Shown here: piece by piece, positions 1,503 to 42,196 of the stretch
Layout: every line of letters begins with the position of its first letter
Numbering within the stretch: position 1 is the first letter of the stretch
IMG/VR virus record: IMGVR_UViG_3300037247_000500
Span: 1 to 51,134 of that record
Source: a virus
Reading direction: 5' to 3' (one strand)
Length of the DNA: 51,134 bases
Notes under the pieces: model-generated
What the model was told of the DNA's origin: nothing
Databases searched by the model: none
Seen by the model: only the letters and a program-made list of their open reading frames with translations
Position numbers and translations under genes: made by a program

Positions 1503-1874
1503 CTATTCACTTTTTTTGGAGAGCTTGTTTATTCTGTTCTTGTTTTTACGAGAGATCTTATCAGGAATACTCTCGGATTTTTTCTTTTCATCCTCGAAAC
1601 TGCCAACCCGACCCTCCATGCGGTCTATTATAACATCCATTGCGTGTTTGTCAGGTGAAGAATATTCTGTTGTAATCTTACCAGTTTCCATATCTACAAC
1701 TTTAGACCTTCCTAAAGCCATATCCCAAAGCAACCGGGCTAAAGCCTCAGCTCTAGTTATTACAGTATCTTCACCAGCCACTTTCTCTTGAGCAACTGAA
1801 CGTATAAAACTCGAAATCAGATGCCCGGCTCGTTTCTTGTTCCCGGCTTCTAGTTTATCTTTAATAGTTTTCAT
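1503..1874 (-). CDS. terS: Putative terminase small subunit
   Basis: 123-residue charged, mostly helical protein immediately upstream of terL. TerS proteins bind DNA and regulate TerL. The sequence begins MKTIKDKLEAGNKKRAGHLI and ends in a lysine-rich tail. I see no confident HTH. The call rests mainly on size and on its place directly before the large subunit. Its ATG overlaps the stop of the preceding small membrane gene (ATGA) and has no strong Shine-Dalgarno site, so translation is probably coupled. Confidence 0.6.
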   Translation of the reverse strand: MKTIKDKLEAGNKKRAGHLISSFIRSVAQEKVAGEDTVITRAEALARLLWDMALGRSKVVDMETGKITTEYSSPDKHAMDVIIDRMEGRVGSFEDEKKKSESIPDKISRKNKNRINKLSKKSE

Positions 1875-1978
1875 TTATTATCTATAAATATGGCATATAT
1901 TAAAACTGCAAAGGGCAACCAAAGCGGCATAAAAGCAAAAAAACCTAAGAACAATATGTTAATTGGGTCGTATTTCAT
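1871..1978 (-). CDS. Small membrane protein (35 aa)
   Basis: A 35-residue frame with one long hydrophobic stretch (FFAFMPLWLPFAVLIYAIFI) and a short charged tail. Its ATG overlaps the protease stop (TAATG) and its own stop overlaps the terS start (ATGA). This double coupling is the main reason to believe it is a gene. Function is unknown; a small holin or protease accessory protein is possible but unproven. Confidence 0.62.
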   Translation of the reverse strand: MKYDPINILFLGFFAFMPLWLPFAVLIYAIFIDNK

Positions 1979-2766
1979 TATCTCATTTCTTGACTGTAAC
2001 CGTCCCAAATATATACTTGCGTTTCTTCAAACTCATAATTATCAAGTGCAAACATAATATCAATCAACACCAAATCTTTCACGACAAGATCAACAGGTAC
2101 GCAATAAATAAGAACCGGGCTAAATCCACCAACCAAAATTCCCCGTACCTTACCATCCATAGTGAAAATAGCACAACCGCTATTACCTGGGTGTCCAGCG
2201 GCATCAGTCGTAAATGTAACTGCCCAACCAAATTCCTCATATTCATAATCTGTTGCCCACTCATCAAAATTCCTATCTAATCCCGATATAATGCCAAGTG
2301 TTATTGAGTTAAAGTTTAGTTTCCCATACGGACTACCTATTACGAATACTTGCTGTCCAAGTCTACAGTCTTTAATACTATCTAACTTCGCAGGTTTTAA
2401 GACTTTTTTGTTTAACTTAATAAACCCCAAATCATATTTCTTACTGGATATTGCTTTAGTCGCTTTTAGTTCACATCCATTACTCAAAGTGATAGTAAAA
2501 TTAGTCCCGCCTTCAACAACATGCCTAGCAGTAAGAATTATATCTCTAGTTATTGCAACACCGCTTCCCTGCCAGTCCTGTGTTTCATTCATTATGTGAA
2601 CCACAGAATCAGACACTTGTTCGACTATATCAGGCAAGGTTACTTGTTGTGGAACTACAAGTTGCTCTGATTGCAGTAACTTCAAGCCAAACCAAAACCA
2701 AAAGCTGAGGGCAATTATCGCAACCATTATTGCCATAGTTATTAATTTATTTTCCCCCTTACTCAT
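1978..2766 (-). CDS. Membrane-anchored trypsin-like serine protease
   Basis: 262 residues. A single hydrophobic segment at about 9-30 after a basic N-terminus predicts an anchored protein with the catalytic domain outside the cytoplasm. The chymotrypsin-fold triad is visible: His82 in LTARHVV, Asp112 in KYDLGFIKL and Ser196 in GHPGNSGCAIF, spaced as in DegP/trypsin-like proteases. No PDZ domain follows, so it is a bare protease. It sits in the late operon four to five small genes downstream of an SPFH protein. Possible roles are processing of a virion or envelope protein, control of the SPFH protein, or help with lysis. The family call is strong; the role is inference. Confidence 0.88.
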   Translation of the reverse strand: MSKGENKLITMAIMVAIIALSFWFWFGLKLLQSEQLVVPQQVTLPDIVEQVSDSVVHIMNETQDWQGSGVAITRDIILTARHVVEGGTNFTITLSNGCELKATKAISSKKYDLGFIKLNKKVLKPAKLDSIKDCRLGQQVFVIGSPYGKLNFNSITLGIISGLDRNFDEWATDYEYEEFGWAVTFTTDAAGHPGNSGCAIFTMDGKVRGILVGGFSPVLIYCVPVDLVVKDLVLIDIMFALDNYEFEETQVYIWDGYSQEMR

Positions 2767-2774
2767 CTTACTCC

Positions 2775-3185
2775 CTACTCCACTCTCCTTAAATATCCAA
2801 TACCAGAAGTAGTATCAGTAGCATAATGCAACACATACCCATCAGCCGGGATCTTAAACAGAATCGTTTGATACAGTGGACACACCCACCGCACATTTCC
2901 AGCAACCTGTGTATCAACCAGACTAAAATAGAACCCACCGGTCACGAGAGATGTAAACACATAGGTCTTACCGGGCAACACACCAACTGAACCATCAGTG
3001 TTTGCTGTACCATTTGTCAACCTCTGAGTCTCGCCCGCTACCGTTGACGCTGCCATTACATCCACCTGGTCCTGAACTAGAAGTTTTAGTTCCTCTAATC
3101 GTGTTTCTATGTCACGCTGTTTATTTTCGGTACTTGGATCTATTCGTTCTTTTGTACTGCCTTTACTAATATAAACATCACTCAT
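2775..3185 (-). CDS. Hypothetical late protein, possibly virion-associated (136 aa)
   Basis: The protein has an N-terminal polar/coiled segment (about residues 10-45, ending ELKLLVQDQVDVM) followed by a small beta-rich domain with GKTYVFTS and ADGYVLHYATD. I place the start at ATG 3185, where GGGAGAG lies 6 nt upstream and the upstream stop overlaps by 8 nt; a longer start at 3218 would lie well inside the previous gene. The fold suggests a small structural or decoration protein. I do not recognise the family. Confidence 0.65.
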   Translation of the reverse strand: MSDVYISKGSTKERIDPSTENKQRDIETRLEELKLLVQDQVDVMAASTVAGETQRLTNGTANTDGSVGVLPGKTYVFTSLVTGGFYFSLVDTQVAGNVRWVCPLYQTILFKIPADGYVLHYATDTTSGIGYLRRVE

Positions 3186-3408
3186 TTCTTTCTCTCCCAT
3201 TGTGTAATGATCTATCAACCAGCAAACGATTACTATTAAATGTAGCTTGTCTTAACTGTATATCCATTAGATCCTCGTGCATTTTCGTCGAATCCGACAA
3301 GTCACTTAACTCTCTCGCAAAATCCTCAAAGCTCATATCCTGACCATCAGGCCCGAACATATCCCATGCTTCTTTGGCTTTCGCTATCTGTTTTGGTGTT
3401 AACGGCAT
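3178..3408 (-). CDS. Hypothetical protein (76 aa)
   Basis: Small, acidic, probably helical protein (MPLTPKQIAKAKEAWDMFG...). It has an AGGAAA ribosome-binding site before ATG 3408 and overlaps the next late gene by 8 nt. The middle segment looks superficially like an EF-hand, but the loop spacing is wrong, so I do not claim calcium binding. Function unknown. Confidence 0.65.
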   Translation of the reverse strand: MPLTPKQIAKAKEAWDMFGPDGQDMSFEDFARELSDLSDSTKMHEDLMDIQLRQATFNSNRLLVDRSLHNGRERNE

Positions 3409-3578
3409 ATCGGTTTCCTTTTAGATAAAAACCAGTATCGAATTCTTAACCTACCCAGTATCCAGTCTCCCCTAGATATGCTCCATCTACTTTTTCTATA
3501 AAACATCACCTTTAATTTCAAGATTTTTGAGGTAGGCCAATAATTCTCCCACCACCATATAATCGGAGATGTATTCAT
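3399..3578 (-). CDS. Possible small basic Trp-rich protein (59 aa)
   Basis: A 59-residue frame rich in Trp, Lys and Arg. Its ATG overlaps an upstream TGA (ATGA) and its end overlaps the gene at 3408 by 10 nt. The coupling geometry matches real genes in this operon, but the odd composition and lack of a recognised family keep confidence low. It may be translated only weakly, or be a chance frame across an otherwise empty gap. Confidence 0.35.
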   Translation of the reverse strand: MNTSPIIWWWENYWPTSKILKLKVMFYRKSRWSISRGDWILGRLRIRYWFLSKRKPICR

Positions 3579-3703
3579 TCTATGGGTTCTCCATCTTCAA
3601 GTGTATAAATATCTGGCTCATTTTCCCATAGAGTTTCTCAAGGATATAAAGCTCTCCAATTTTCAAAACCACCAACATTCGTTGCCGTTTCTATATCTTC
3701 CAC
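3575..3703 (-). pseudogene. Short frame split by an in-frame TGA
   Basis: A GTG at 3703 overlaps the SPFH stop (TAGTG) and has GGAGAG just upstream, the expected layout for a coupled gene. The frame reads 21 residues (ending ENWRALYP), meets TGA at 3640-3638, and would continue as a sensible acidic peptide (ENEPDIYTLEDGEPIE) to TGA at 3577-3575, which overlaps the next ATG. It could be a decayed gene, a 21-residue gene followed by remnant sequence, or a readthrough site. TGA is an ordinary stop elsewhere in this genome. Confidence 0.35.
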
Positions 3704-4242
3704 TAACTCTCCACACTCAATATTGGCTCATTCAACAACACTCGAAAATTCTGTGTCCGGCCAATATCTGTAATATACACAAATTCAATTCGGAGTCCCC
3801 ATCCCTGGCTTTCCTCTCGGAGTCCCTTAGTGATCACGGATTCAAGTTCTTCAATATCGAGGCCATCCGCAACCCGACCCCTTATATACCGCTGAATGAT
3901 CCCCAGAGCCAATGCCTGAATACAATCATCATAATCGAAAATCTCCAGGATCGCCTTCCGAGCATTACTAACCTTGTACCTAATTGCTCCAGATACAGTC
4001 ATCTCAGTATGATCGAGTGTCCACACAGACTGTGCTCGGAGATCTTTCACCTGTGTTCTGATCTTAATTGCCTCGCAGTCCTGAATCAAAGGCCAATACA
4101 CGTACCAGCCGGATTTCATTTCCGTGACTCTTGTCCCCAATGTGACCCGAACTCCAGCCTCATCCGGGTTGACCAGGAATATGCGAGGCACTAACCGTAA
4201 TACGGTACTAAACAGATCTGATATTTCACTTAGGAAGGCCAT
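3703..4242 (-). CDS. SPFH/stomatin/prohibitin-like (Band 7) protein
   Basis: 179 residues matching the SPFH core. A weakly hydrophobic N-terminus (LRLVPRIFLV) is followed by NPDEAGVRVTLG, the turn after the membrane hairpin, and GWYVYWPLIQ, the typical high-aromatic SPFH turn. Next come a beta segment (LDHTEMTVSGAIRYKV), then helices with RGRVADGLDIEELE and the family's late strand WGLRIEFVYITDI. SPFH proteins form membrane-bound oligomeric cages that often work with membrane proteases (HflKC with FtsH, stomatin with NfeD-type proteases). This copy lacks the long C-terminal coiled coil of bacterial members. Its ATG overlaps the upstream stop (TAATG). Such genes are uncommon in phages of this size. 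Confidence 0.85.
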   Translation of the reverse strand: MAFLSEISDLFSTVLRLVPRIFLVNPDEAGVRVTLGTRVTEMKSGWYVYWPLIQDCEAIKIRTQVKDLRAQSVWTLDHTEMTVSGAIRYKVSNARKAILEIFDYDDCIQALALGIIQRYIRGRVADGLDIEELESVITKGLREESQGWGLRIEFVYITDIGRTQNFRVLLNEPILSVES

Positions 4243-4784: not shown

Positions 4785-4813
4785 ATTATACCATATTCCA
4801 GCCCTAATGTCAA
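4785..4813 (-). promoter_or_regulatory. Late-arm sigma70 promoter
   Basis: Reading on the minus strand, TTGACA (4813-4808) is followed by a 17-bp spacer and TATAAT (4790-4785), with TGG before the -10 (extended -10). Both boxes are exact consensus. It is the only clear minus-strand promoter at the head of the late arm, with transcription expected to start near 4778. Confidence 0.88.
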
Positions 4814-5335: not shown

Positions 5336-5515
5336 TTCAGCTCTTGTCTGGTCTATGTATACTAGGTAAAATCCCAAACCCTAACACTCACGAGCTACCG
5401 AGCTGCATTAGTAGCAGGCTGTTGTCTGTTGTGTAAGTGACCGAGTCATGCTCTGTTGTATACGCGTTGCCTAGCACAACAACACATAACCAGCCAGACA
5501 CACGGCCCATCTATA

Positions 5516-5534
5516 TAGGACTATTTTAGTCCTA
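5516..5534. repeat. Short perfect inverted repeat
   Basis: Arms TAGGACT and AGTCCTA flank a 5-nt loop (ATTTT). It lies just before the TACCTAG repeat clusters. As RNA it would form a stable short hairpin, but no U-run follows, so it is not a clear terminator. Confidence 0.4.
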
Positions 5535-5564
5535 CTTTACAGCCTACTCAACTGCTGTCGATGT

Positions 5565-5849
5565 TACCTAGATTTACCTAGACTTACATAGACAGCTAAT
5601 CGGCCTTAATCTAGGTATTAACCTCTATATCTAGGTATACTAGGTATATTATAAAAAGATTATAAGAGTATAAATACGTGTATATAGAGAATATACGTGT
5701 ATATGGAATACGTGTATATATAGAGACTTTTGTAAAATACCTAGTATACCTAGACTTACCTAGTCCGAGCACTGTAAGTATATACTAGACAATATGTTAT
5801 GTGTTTTGTGTATTTTGGGTTTACCTAGTCTTTACCTAGTCTTACCTAG
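5565..5849. repeat. TACCTAG iteron clusters (candidate origin)
   Basis: Exact TACCTAG starts at 5565, 5575, 5738, 5747, 5757, 5822, 5833 and 5843. The complement CTAGGTA starts at 5611, 5631 and 5640, with an outlier at 5362. A degenerate copy (TACATAG) lies at 5585. Within groups the spacing is mostly 9-11 bp, close to one helical turn, so a protein could load on one face of the DNA. The groups flank an AT-rich stretch. This is the usual architecture of iteron origins or operator arrays; the binding protein is not identified. Confidence 0.75.
5640..5735. repeat. AT-rich segment with three TACGTGTATAT repeats
   Basis: Direct repeats start at 5675, 5694 and 5709 in a stretch that is almost entirely A, T and short TATA runs. 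Flanked on both sides by TACCTAG clusters, it is the likely unwinding element if the region is an origin. Confidence 0.6.
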
Positions 5850-12048: not shown

Positions 12049-12575
12049 TAAATACGGTGTTTCTTGATATGGATGGAGTGATTACAGATTTCAATAAATC
12101 TGTTTGTGAACAATTTAATTTGCCTTATCCTCCCCAAGTTTATTATTTTTTTCCAGAAATCCGACCTCAAGTTAATGCTTTTTGTGATAGGTTGTTCTGG
12201 CAAAACCTTGAGTGGATGCATGATGGTCGGGATATATTACGAGCGATTACGGAGTTATTTGAACCTGAGAAAGTATATCTTCTTACTAAAATAATGCCGA
12301 ATGTTGAATCTGCGTCGGGTAAAATGATATGGATACAGAATAATTTGCCTGTTTATTTTTCTCGTGTGATTATTACATCACTTGGGGTTCCGAAATCTTT
12401 TATGGCCCGCCCAGACGTTTTGTTAATTGATGATAATGATAAATTTGTAAATGAATTTCGAGAAGTGGGGGGGAAAGCAATTCTTGTCCCTCGTCCTTGG
12501 AATACTTCATGTTCATTAGCTGACAAAACAGTTTTAGAAATTACTAAGCAACTTAGGAAGATAAATGCCAGATAA
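12045..12575 (+). CDS. HAD-superfamily phosphatase, 5'-nucleotidase-like
   Basis: 176 residues. The N-terminal VFLDMDGVITDFN has the HAD nucleophile and acid Asp8/Asp10 followed by Gly-Val. The late motif LLIDDNDKFVNEF near 131-143 supplies the metal-binding acids. The length and cap-less layout resemble phage 5'(3')-deoxyribonucleotidases, which trim nucleotide pools; it could also act on other small phosphates. ATGA overlap with the previous gene and 11-nt overlap with the next. Confidence 0.8.
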   Translation: MINTVFLDMDGVITDFNKSVCEQFNLPYPPQVYYFFPEIRPQVNAFCDRLFWQNLEWMHDGRDILRAITELFEPEKVYLLTKIMPNVESASGKMIWIQNNLPVYFSRVIITSLGVPKSFMARPDVLLIDDNDKFVNEFREVGGKAILVPRPWNTSCSLADKTVLEITKQLRKINAR

Positions 12576-13470
12576 AGAAACTATTCATCAGGTATGCGTT
12601 GGTCTACGAAATGGCCTGGTTCATAGGGACATAGCTAAAAAGGTTAATTGTTCTATACACATTGTACAAAGAATATCTGCTATCAGACCAACTCGTGCAT
12701 TATTACCAGCCGATTTTCATAGCGGCAGCAATGTTGGACTCACTCCACCGGCATACCAATATAAGTATATTTCTAATCCAACATCAGAGGAACATCGCAG
12801 ACAGAATAAGTGGTCTAGATTACAAAAAGAATGTTGGAACTGGTATATTAACACATTAAATATATTAAAGCCTATTGACAAAGCATTTCTTCTTGGTGAT
12901 TTAGTTGAGGGCGATGGTAGCCGATCTGGTGGAACCGAGCTTATAACTACTGATAGAAAAAAACAAGTAAGCATGGCTATTGAAGTTATTGAAGCTATTG
13001 AAGCTGAGGGCATGGTGATGGTATTTGGCACGCCATACCATACCGGCCAAGCTGAAGATTTTGAAGATGATATAGCTAAACATTTCGGAATTAAGATCGG
13101 TGGTCATGAATGGGAAAATATTAATGGCTGTACTTTTGATCTTAAACATAAGCAAAGTAACTGCAAGAATCCAGCTACGAGTATCTGGAATGAAATAGTA
13201 GATAATAGAGAGTGGGCTGTACTCGGAGAACAACCTAAAGCTGACGTTCTTGTACGTGCTCATAGTCACCGTTTTTGTTGCATTAAAATTGAAGGTTGTG
13301 TTGGGATTTCTGTCCCTGCTTTACAGGCTTATGGTACTAAGTTTGGGGCTAGGGCGTGTTCACGTAAGGTCCAGTTTGGGTTAGTGGCAGTTGATGTATG
13401 GCCTGATGGTGAGATCGTAGAGCGTATTCATATAGCTAAACTTGCAGAACATATTACGCATGAGAATTAA
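12565..13470 (+). CDS. HTH plus calcineurin-like metallophosphoesterase
   Basis: 301 residues. An HTH-like segment occupies about 10-38 (NGLVHRDIAKKVNCSIHIVQ). It is followed by a metallophosphoesterase core: Asp50/His52 in PADFHSG, GDLVEGDG near 110, GTPYHTG near 156 replacing the usual GNH, and RAHSHRF near 232 giving the HxH metal ligands. Such HTH-phosphoesterase proteins recur in phages, with unknown substrates (nucleotides or DNA ends). The replacement of GNHD by GTPYH is a notable variation. Confidence 0.8.
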   Translation: MPDKETIHQVCVGLRNGLVHRDIAKKVNCSIHIVQRISAIRPTRALLPADFHSGSNVGLTPPAYQYKYISNPTSEEHRRQNKWSRLQKECWNWYINTLNILKPIDKAFLLGDLVEGDGSRSGGTELITTDRKKQVSMAIEVIEAIEAEGMVMVFGTPYHTGQAEDFEDDIAKHFGIKIGGHEWENINGCTFDLKHKQSNCKNPATSIWNEIVDNREWAVLGEQPKADVLVRAHSHRFCCIKIEGCVGISVPALQAYGTKFGARACSRKVQFGLVAVDVWPDGEIVERIHIAKLAEHITHEN

Positions 13471-39555: not shown

Positions 39556-40842
39556 TTAACGAAGTTGTGCTACCCGTATCCAGTCGATCTTCAAATTATT
39601 ACTACTACCATTCTGTTCATTCCCCAGGAAAACCGACAGTGCCATCTCTATTCCATCAGCAATGTTTGCAGCTGTCGTACCAGTCTCGATCAATTTTCCA
39701 TCCTGGTAAAATTCAATCTGTGTAATACCAGTTACTTTGAAACCAAGATTAGTAGCTGAAGTTCCAACAGTTACATTATCTTCAGTAGTATCATTAGCAC
39801 CGGCCTTTTCCGTGATTGTACCACCTAGACCACTTCCAGAATTCTGATCAGTGAAAAAACCAATAAGACTAGGACTAGTTTCATCCATCACACCACTTGC
39901 AATCAAAGTCGTATCTGTACTTGACATGCCAATAAAAACATGATTATCTATCTCATTAACTTGTATCCTGGCTTCAAACCAAATCGTTTTACCAGCAGCA
40001 GGTTTTACACAACAGTTTAAAAGTTGTGCGTTGATAGACTGATCTTTTGTACCATCAAGTTCTGTAAACTGTATTTCACCACCAGCACCTATTACTGGCC
40101 CCATCTCGGCATCAGCTGCACTTGCTAGAAGTGTAGTTGTCCAACCAGCGGCATCTGCGGTTGCATCAGCACCAACCGTGACACCTGGTCCCATGAAATC
40201 ATCGAAGTAATAGAAACCAAATCCGGGGTCAATTATCATTTTCATTATTGGACAATCTTTCCAAAGCTGTGCACTTGGACCAACCTGATGATCTACAGCA
40301 GTAAACTTGGCATAGTCTGTAGTAATCACTTCCTTAAATTTACAACCCTGAGCTTGATCACCCACATTCGTATATAAACTATGTGGTGTCGATACTCTAA
40401 GAACCTTAAATGTAGAAGTCGCTGTTGGAAAAATAGTATTCGCAACAGCAACACTACTATAAGTTGTCCAGTCAGCTACCGTAACAACACCAGTTGACTG
40501 AACATAATCAGTGATTATTCCCATAATTTGCTTACTGGGAACAATAACAAGCAAACCAATAAGTTCATTGTCAGTATCAAAAGTAGCCGTAAGCGAACTA
40601 TCAGTTAGGGTAGTAGCAGTACCAACAGCACTACAGGTTCCTGAAAACAATACATCAGCATCGGTTTTATGAAACGTACAGCCCACCGCATAACCACTTG
40701 CAGCATCACTGGGTACGGTTGTACCATAGCAATCCATTATTCCATCCACTGTTTTGTGGATAACTATCGGCGTGGCTACACCAACTCTACCCGGAATCAT
40801 TTCGGATAACGTCCACGCTATATTGTGTCTATCAGCACTCAT
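39556..40842 (-). CDS. ConA/jelly-roll-like virion protein, paralogue A (428 aa)
   Basis: One of four related genes around the capsid gene. Shared N-terminal part: HKTVDGIMDCYGTTVP and VGCTFHKTDADVLFSG. Shared core: AQLWKDCPIMKMIIDPGFGF and YYFDDF, KTIWFEARIQVNEIDNHVFI, and the ending KIDWIRVAQLR. The core resembles LamG/ConA-like jelly-roll domains. Residues about 67-150 are an extra domain (TTLTDSSLTATFDTDNELIG, IITDYVQSTGVVTVADW) absent from the shorter paralogues. Likely head decoration or an outer virion layer. A conserved leader precedes it. Confidence 0.72.
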   Translation of the reverse strand: MSADRHNIAWTLSEMIPGRVGVATPIVIHKTVDGIMDCYGTTVPSDAASGYAVGCTFHKTDADVLFSGTCSAVGTATTLTDSSLTATFDTDNELIGLLVIVPSKQIMGIITDYVQSTGVVTVADWTTYSSVAVANTIFPTATSTFKVLRVSTPHSLYTNVGDQAQGCKFKEVITTDYAKFTAVDHQVGPSAQLWKDCPIMKMIIDPGFGFYYFDDFMGPGVTVGADATADAAGWTTTLLASAADAEMGPVIGAGGEIQFTELDGTKDQSINAQLLNCCVKPAAGKTIWFEARIQVNEIDNHVFIGMSSTDTTLIASGVMDETSPSLIGFFTDQNSGSGLGGTITEKAGANDTTEDNVTVGTSATNLGFKVTGITQIEFYQDGKLIETGTTAANIADGIEMALSVFLGNEQNGSSNNLKIDWIRVAQLR

Positions 40843-40909: not shown

Positions 40910-42196
40910 TTAACGAAGTTGTGCTATTCGCACCCAATCAACTTTTAACGTATTAATATTAGATCCATCTTCATTTTGGCAAACAAGCGACAACGCCATC
41001 TCTATTCCATCAGCGATGTTTGCAGCTGTCGTACCAGTTTCAATTACTTTACCGTCAACATAAAATTCAACCTGTGTAATACCAGTCACTTTAAAGCCTA
41101 CATTATACCATGTAGTCGCTAACAAATCAAAATTATCTTCAGTGACATCAGATGTACCATTCTTCTGTGTAACTGTTCCACCTTTGAGTGTGGTAGAATT
41201 TACATCACTGAAGAATCCTATAGAACTTGCATCCGAACCAGCTTCATCCAATGCACCAGATGCAATAATGGCCGTAGCTGTTTCGGCTATACCAACAAAA
41301 ACCTGATTATCAACATGACTAATTTGTACCCTAGCTTCAAACCAAATTGTTTTGCCAGCGGTGGGCTTTACGCAACAGTTTAAAAGTTGACAGTTCATAC
41401 CCTGATCTGGAGTAGCAGCAGCAGCAATATGAAGTTCACCACCATGACCAAGAATGGTTCCAAAAGTACCGGCTGTTGATCTAGTAATAGTCCAACCTTG
41501 AACAGTATTATTTGCAGTGCTACCAGGAGCACCAGCCAAACCTGTAAAATCATCAAAGTGAAAGTAACCCATTCCAGGATCAACCACTATTTCCATCAAT
41601 GGGCAATCTTTCCAGAGTTGAGCACTGGGACCAACCTGATGATCTACAGCAGTAAATTTAGTAGCATCTGTACTAATCAAAGAATCAAATTTACTACCTT
41701 GAACTTGATCGCCTCTATTTACATGCAAACCTGTTGACGTTGATATTTTGATAATTCTATATGTTTCACCTTTTGCTGGAACAATAGTGTTTGTAACAGC
41801 AGTTCCACTATAATCTGTCCAATCAACAACTGTAATGACACCTGTAGTGGCGTTGTAATCACTAATCACGCCCATTATTTTCTTGTTTATATCAATAACT
41901 AACAGGCTATTCAATTCATTATCAGTGTCAAAGGTGCTAGCAACCACTATATCAGTTAAAGTAGTAGCAGTACCACTTTGTACTACCCCCTCAAACAGCG
42001 TGTCACCATCAGTCTGTGTAAACAAACCACCTACTGCATAAGCAGGATCAGTCGTACTATCAGCAGGTACAGTTATACCATAACATTCTATTTGTCCATC
42101 TTCCGATTTGTGTTTTGTCCGGGGTGCAGTTACACCAACTTTACCGGGAAACATTTCTGCTAATGTTCCCGCTATATTACCTCTATCAGCCCTCAT
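40910..42196 (-). CDS. ConA/jelly-roll-like virion protein, paralogue B (428 aa)
   Basis: Same length and order as paralogue A and clearly a tandem duplicate: shared TAVDHQVGPSAQLWKDCP, QLLNCCVKPTAGKTIWFEAR, GTTAANIADGIEMALS and the final KVDWVRIAQLR. It carries the same extra domain at about 70-152 (TTLTDIVVASTFDTDNELNS, ISDYNATTGVITVVDW). The copies differ at many positions, so the duplication is not very recent, unlike the better conserved leader. Role as for paralogue A. Confidence 0.72.
   Translation of the reverse strand: MRADRGNIAGTLAEMFPGKVGVTAPRTKHKSEDGQIECYGITVPADSTTDPAYAVGGLFTQTDGDTLFEGVVQSGTATTLTDIVVASTFDTDNELNSLLVIDINKKIMGVISDYNATTGVITVVDWTDYSGTAVTNTIVPAKGETYRIIKISTSTGLHVNRGDQVQGSKFDSLISTDATKFTAVDHQVGPSAQLWKDCPLMEIVVDPGMGYFHFDDFTGLAGAPGSTANNTVQGWTITRSTAGTFGTILGHGGELHIAAAATPDQGMNCQLLNCCVKPTAGKTIWFEARVQISHVDNQVFVGIAETATAIIASGALDEAGSDASSIGFFSDVNSTTLKGGTVTQKNGTSDVTEDNFDLLATTWYNVGFKVTGITQVEFYVDGKVIETGTTAANIADGIEMALSLVCQNEDGSNINTLKVDWVRIAQLR

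Follow-up and report, generated by a model that had tools for sequence, protein, structure and literature searches.

A minimal stomatin-type SPFH protein and a PDZ-less Deg-type protease in a variable leader cassette of a phage lineage

Reports of SPFH proteins in phages go back to 2006. Such proteins were described in the T4-like phages Aeh1, 44RR and RB43 (PMC1524935), in Ackermann-type and other phages (PMC10892097, PMC13239085), in relatives of Bruynoghevirus (PMC8540360) and in the satellite AH14b (PMC4936722); the portions of these reports considered here give no tested function. Searches of an open-licence subset of papers gave no description of the minimal SPFH family analysed below or of a Deg-type protease paired with it.

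The window, that is, the whole stretch of 51,134 bp, is a closed circular phage genome with a 203-bp end repeat. The minus strand carries, in this order, a promoter, a leader of small genes including those of an SPFH protein and a protease, and the genes of TerS, TerL and the portal protein. The promoter (4785-4813) is of the extended sigma70 type, TTGACA-17-TATAAT with an additional TG, and matches the consensus in 12 of 12 positions. Similar sites precede the same cassette in four relatives (L003, L007, L024, L029). To judge from its sequence, such a strong promoter at the head of the cassette may mean early expression. The initial annotation spoke of a late operon, which is right as to position, upstream of TerS-TerL-portal, but doubtful as to timing, since the cassette starts at a perfect sigma70-type promoter. 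The frame of the large terminase TerL (638 aa, 65% identical to that of L003) stays open through the circular junction, its N-terminal part occupying positions 1-1497 of the minus strand and the remainder continuing over the junction to 50512. The TerS-like small terminase gene (1503-1874, minus strand) was named by position and inspection; nearly all of its 72 family matches lie directly upstream of TerL.

The interval from the SPFH gene (3703-4242) to the protease gene (1978-2766) had been credited with four small genes; it holds only two solid ones, both on the minus strand, and one dubious ORF (3399-3578). The first, SM76 (3178-3408), encodes a conserved small protein of about 60-75 aa with 28 family matches among TerL loci and 43% identity to L003; it adjoins the SPFH and protease genes in many relatives and is also present where SPFH is missing. 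The second, D147 (2775-3218), encodes a conserved protein of about 115-147 aa with 30 family matches, usually directly upstream of the protease gene. It has no Pfam or NCBIfam match and, by inspection only, resembles virion proteins. The typical gene order in relatives is SPFH - SM76 - D147 - protease - TerS - TerL. The region 3410-3702, from the SPFH gene to the next solid gene, looks by eye like a decayed gene, with stretches that seem coding in more than one frame and are interrupted by stop codons.

The leader between the promoter and the packaging genes is a variable, gene-swapping cassette. In relatives the same slot also holds genes of Cpn10 chaperonins and of recombination endonuclease VII-type nucleases, as would fit a leader whose exchangeable genes serve host interaction or assembly. 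The Cpn10 (GroES-like) genes occur in several relatives, L018:1873-2439 and L046:8091-8390 among them (Pfam 1e-19 and 3e-16). Another family of small leader proteins (c1, nine loci, for instance L010:424-720 and L023:7428-7697) has no Pfam match and carries an HExxH-like motif (HECMHAE or HESLHAE); from this motif, its members are possible metallopeptidases.

Two further regions of the window deserve mention. The gene-free region 5362-5849 between divergent promoters contains 12 copies of CTAGGTA, many of them as triplets spaced by about 10 bp; the whole window contains 17 copies, with 5 expected. These repeats are a candidate array of iterons or operators. Two tandem genes of 428 aa each (39556-40842 and 40910-42196) in the virion gene region are a recent duplication, their aligned blocks being 70-85% alike in DNA.

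Relatives were collected by a TerL search, which yielded 80 related viral contigs; Band_7 domains were found in 15 of them and Trypsin_2 domains in 45. Direct viral scans with the window SPFH protein or a two-sequence alignment recovered only L003, so that the relatives come from the TerL route. Iterative models recovered the same SPFH set together with the neighbouring families SM76 and D147, and a second SPFH-based scan added more loci. The SPFH total is about 22 non-redundant loci, made up of TerL relatives and other loci. L144, an independent contig that was placed in a Neptuniibacter MAG, has the same gene order; this points weakly to a gammaproteobacterial host. The window SPFH protein and that of L038 had no match among 50,697 phage records, and the family consensus matched only two records of Acinetobacter phage MD-2021a, where the gene is named ybbK and is probably bacterial sequence. 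Thus no credible isolated phage carrying this SPFH family was seen in these records. The listed isolates have TerL proteins no more than about 32% identical to that of the window.

The initial annotation assigned the product of 3703-4242 to the SPFH proteins and that of 1978-2766 to single-pass trypsin-like proteases with an intact triad. Profile searches upheld both families, and a non-SPFH fold was not seen; the gene boundaries given were exact. The SPFH protein (179 aa, encoded on the minus strand) matches Pfam Band_7 with E=5.3e-19 (69.4 bits at a cutoff of 23.6). It consists of an amphipathic helix (residues 2-15) and the SPFH1/2 region (about 20-162), with no coiled coil. The AlphaFold2 model, based on an alignment of 15 family members (pLDDT 89.7), matches PDB structures of stomatin, HflK/C, prohibitin and QmcA; it has the SPFH1/2 fold, with an E-value of about 1e-13 and a TM-score of 0.72 (by query) for stomatin. 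By profile ranking the family is nearer to stomatin and QmcA than to HflKC, prohibitin or flotillin: the family profile yields 2e-23 for stomatin and 5e-20 for QmcA, far above HflK/C (about 1e-9), and the NCBIfam equivalog cut-offs of HflK and HflC are missed (23.4 vs 159.4 and 20.1 vs 134.4 bits).

All members of the family are 149-195 aa long and stop just past SPFH2, and the C-terminal coiled coil of cage-type proteins is missing throughout. That the gene is split, with the coiled coil encoded by the ORF that follows, was ruled out, as this next gene belongs to an unrelated small family. Most members have a strongly amphipathic helix at the N-terminus (moment 0.5-0.76), there is no clear transmembrane segment, and the family profile places this helix on the membrane-hairpin region of stomatin. 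This suggests that the protein lies on the cytoplasmic membrane face. The SPFH gene is under purifying selection, with NG86 dN/dS of about 0.05 (L038/L064) and 0.17 (L026/L042) in the two measurable pairs, whose synonymous sites are near saturation; this rules out a relic or decaying gene. A known defence family was also considered, and PADLOC gave no match for this protein.

The protease (262 aa, encoded on the minus strand) matches Pfam Trypsin_2 with E=1.2e-21. A single transmembrane helix (residues 3-32) is followed by the catalytic domain (about 44-230) with the triad H82, D112 and S196, which is invariant in 31 of 31 aligned relatives; the PDZ domain is absent. The AlphaFold2 model (pLDDT 88.9) has a long N-terminal helix and a Deg/HtrA domain with no PDZ, and its closest fold matches are DegP, DegS-deltaPDZ and HtrA1. 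This is a trypsin-like Deg/HtrA domain with intact His-Asp-Ser, and not an equivalog of DegS or DegP, since it scores 47.8 bits where DegS requires 423 and its model contains no PDZ. Of the 38 N-termini scanned as possible complete starts, every one has a hydrophobic export or anchor segment, and the proteases of L053 and L054 have a plausible lipobox. From the invariant triad and these N-terminal segments, the protein is predicted most likely to be an active, tethered, periplasmic enzyme. Both this gene and the SPFH gene are real and under selection.

PADLOC matches of the protease look like generic trypsin domains, and its assignment to a known defence family was rejected. Several relatives are peculiar in this gene. 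In L060 (3-767) collagen-like repeats are in frame with the protease domain at a contig edge, which suggests a fibre fusion in this one relative. In L034 (3046-3795) the protease is spread over two frames (69 and 140 aa), either because the gene is broken or because the assembly is faulty. The otherwise distant phage L001/G001 has in common with the window the protease (52%) and the protein encoded at 12565-13470 (60%), which suggests gene exchange between lineages. It was rejected as a sister phage, as apart from these two strong proteins only weaker matches are common and no Band_7 domain is present.

The initial annotation had linked the SPFH protein and the protease functionally. The genes are indeed often close: the protease gene lies within 3 kb of the SPFH gene in 18 of about 22 non-redundant loci and is absent or distant in the other four. 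However, the pattern that would speak against such a link, relatives with one gene but not the other, is largely seen. L037 and L153 (records of 47.9 and 35.9 kb) have SPFH and no protease, the SPFH gene of L153 lying between TerL and the next large gene (583 aa), and in L157 the protease is distant; in turn, of the 25 loci that lack SPFH and extend at least 3.3 kb upstream, 17 have a protease. In all 36 loci with this upstream length, both genes are found in 10, SPFH alone in one, protease alone in 17 and neither in eight. Since the protease is common where SPFH is missing, the two are not significantly associated (Fisher p=0.22, and p=0.21 without near-duplicates).

The phylogeny agrees with the counts. 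On the TerL tree the SPFH state changed 12 times and that of the protease seven times. In 10 independent pairs discordant for SPFH, the protease state is the same in about 7.6, shifts with SPFH in about 2.4 and shifts in the opposite direction in none. TerL is at least 90% alike in L049, L023 and L034, where SPFH is found only in L049: SPFH was swapped and the protease slot retained. Distance matrices of the two proteins correlate with r=0.19 in 13 loci (p=0.10; partial 0.09) and with r=0.48 in all 18 loci (partial 0.21, p=0.058), but the latter value is driven by tight clades, and with one member per tight clade the co-variation is absent (r=-0.29, partial -0.28). Thus the two genes are not obligately co-inherited, and a dedicated co-evolving pair was rejected on the Fisher test, the TerL tree and the thinned correlation. 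The honest reading is that they are co-located in a shared, fast-exchanging leader, and these data suggest that they are most likely separately inherited accessory genes and not halves of one machine. Any loose functional preference is weak; it is indicated by the discordant protease changes, which always follow SPFH, and by the weakly positive partial correlation in 18 loci.

For these reasons a dedicated phage complex, in which the SPFH protein would organise the protease in a membrane microdomain or regulate it there, in the way HflKC acts on FtsH, seems quite unlikely, despite the common operon, the proximity of the genes even in the independent contig L144 and the weak same-direction changes on the tree. 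Apart from the patterns of presence and the loss of co-variation on thinning, the cage coiled coil is missing, and the two proteins are predicted probably to be on opposite membrane faces. The partner, moreover, is of the wrong class: to our knowledge, SPFH proteins in known systems are partnered by FtsH (AAA) or NfeD/ClpP-type proteins and not by Deg/HtrA proteases, whereas the phage protein is trypsin-like. Another possibility is that the SPFH protein is a platform for head assembly that brings the portal or the initiation of the prohead to the inner membrane, in a role like that of T4 gp40. The gene is near terminase and portal genes even where the protease is missing, preceding TerS in L058 and L069 and following TerL in L153. 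But it is dispensable, being missing in 25 of 36 loci and differing between close sister phages, so that this role is hardly probable.

The remaining alternatives concern the protease. Many phages keep lysis genes beside packaging genes, and the membrane-tethered protease adjoins packaging genes here; with or without SPFH, it might prepare the envelope for lysis and release by replacing or assisting the spanin/holin step. No endolysin was recognised among the scanned window proteins, a weak argument because many of them match no family. On the other hand, neither a lysis gene nor a holin was identified beside the protease, and the strong sigma70-type promoter may mean early expression; we consider a lysis role unlikely. 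That the protease is a virion component on fibres and not a host-cell envelope enzyme is very unlikely, as every other complete member starts with a hydrophobic export or anchor segment. The frame in L060 joining collagen-like repeats to the protease domain would fit it, but ends at the contig edge; D147 and fibre-like proteins adjoining the protease in relatives would fit it as well.

The explanation we favour, with a slightly better than even chance, is a variable leader cassette with two independent inner-membrane accessory functions, a periplasmic protease and a mini-stomatin binding host SPFH proteins. The protease would be exported and, held at the membrane by its N-terminal helix, would work in the periplasm in the manner of a DegS with no PDZ. 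As PDZ control is missing, its activity may be constitutive, and it would trim or degrade host envelope proteins in infection. The mini-stomatin would sit on the cytoplasmic membrane face via its amphipathic helix. Since it has kept the SPFH1/2 docking domain and lost the coiled coil that closes the dome, it could dock to SPFH neighbours and thus join host stomatin/QmcA/HflKC-type assemblies as a decoy or adaptor subunit, capping, perturbing or redirecting them; it would form no cage of its own around the phage protease. Taken by itself, the capping step is a tentative proposal, which we regard as doubtful. Rather improbable is the full scheme of a coiled-coil-less phage stomatin acting as a dominant-negative or adaptor that remodels host SPFH assemblies, while a DegS-like protease with no PDZ, expressed from the same promoter, reprograms the periplasmic side. 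If true, this would be the first phage "SPFH inhibitor".

The locus thus yields a compact SPFH family of about 22 sequences from one phage lineage, conserved by selection yet repeatedly gained and lost. Its reduction to the bare SPFH domain leads to a concrete, testable prediction, namely that host SPFH cages are capped or poisoned. A second candidate effector at the envelope is the conserved Deg protease, which is anchored in the membrane, has no PDZ and is commoner in this lineage than the SPFH gene.

Of the described systems, the SPFH "lipoproteins" of PHROG 200 in T4-like and Ackermann-type phages also represent a phage-borne SPFH domain, whose role is not described in the portions of the reports considered (PMC1524935, PMC10892097, PMC13239085). 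They form a different family (partial phrog_200 match, 3e-7) in a different type of phage, and the same portions mention no protease neighbour. HflK and HflC share the SPFH domain at the level of a weak profile match (about 1e-9), whereas the phage protein falls far short of their model cut-offs (23 vs 159 bits) and has neither their N-terminal transmembrane segment nor their coiled coil, and no FtsH is encoded in the cassette. Stomatin and QmcA are the best match in both profile and fold, with the SPFH1/2 fold in common and the membrane-associated N-terminal segment aligned. However, they are about 290-305 aa long, whereas the phage protein has 179 aa, a short amphipathic helix and no coiled coil or C-terminal region, and no NfeD partner is seen in the cassette. 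The protease, in turn, differs from DegS, DegP and HtrA in the missing PDZ, a C-terminal helix and scores below all HtrA equivalog cut-offs, but shares with them the trypsin-like Deg fold and the triad and, as in DegS, is anchored in the membrane by its N-terminus.
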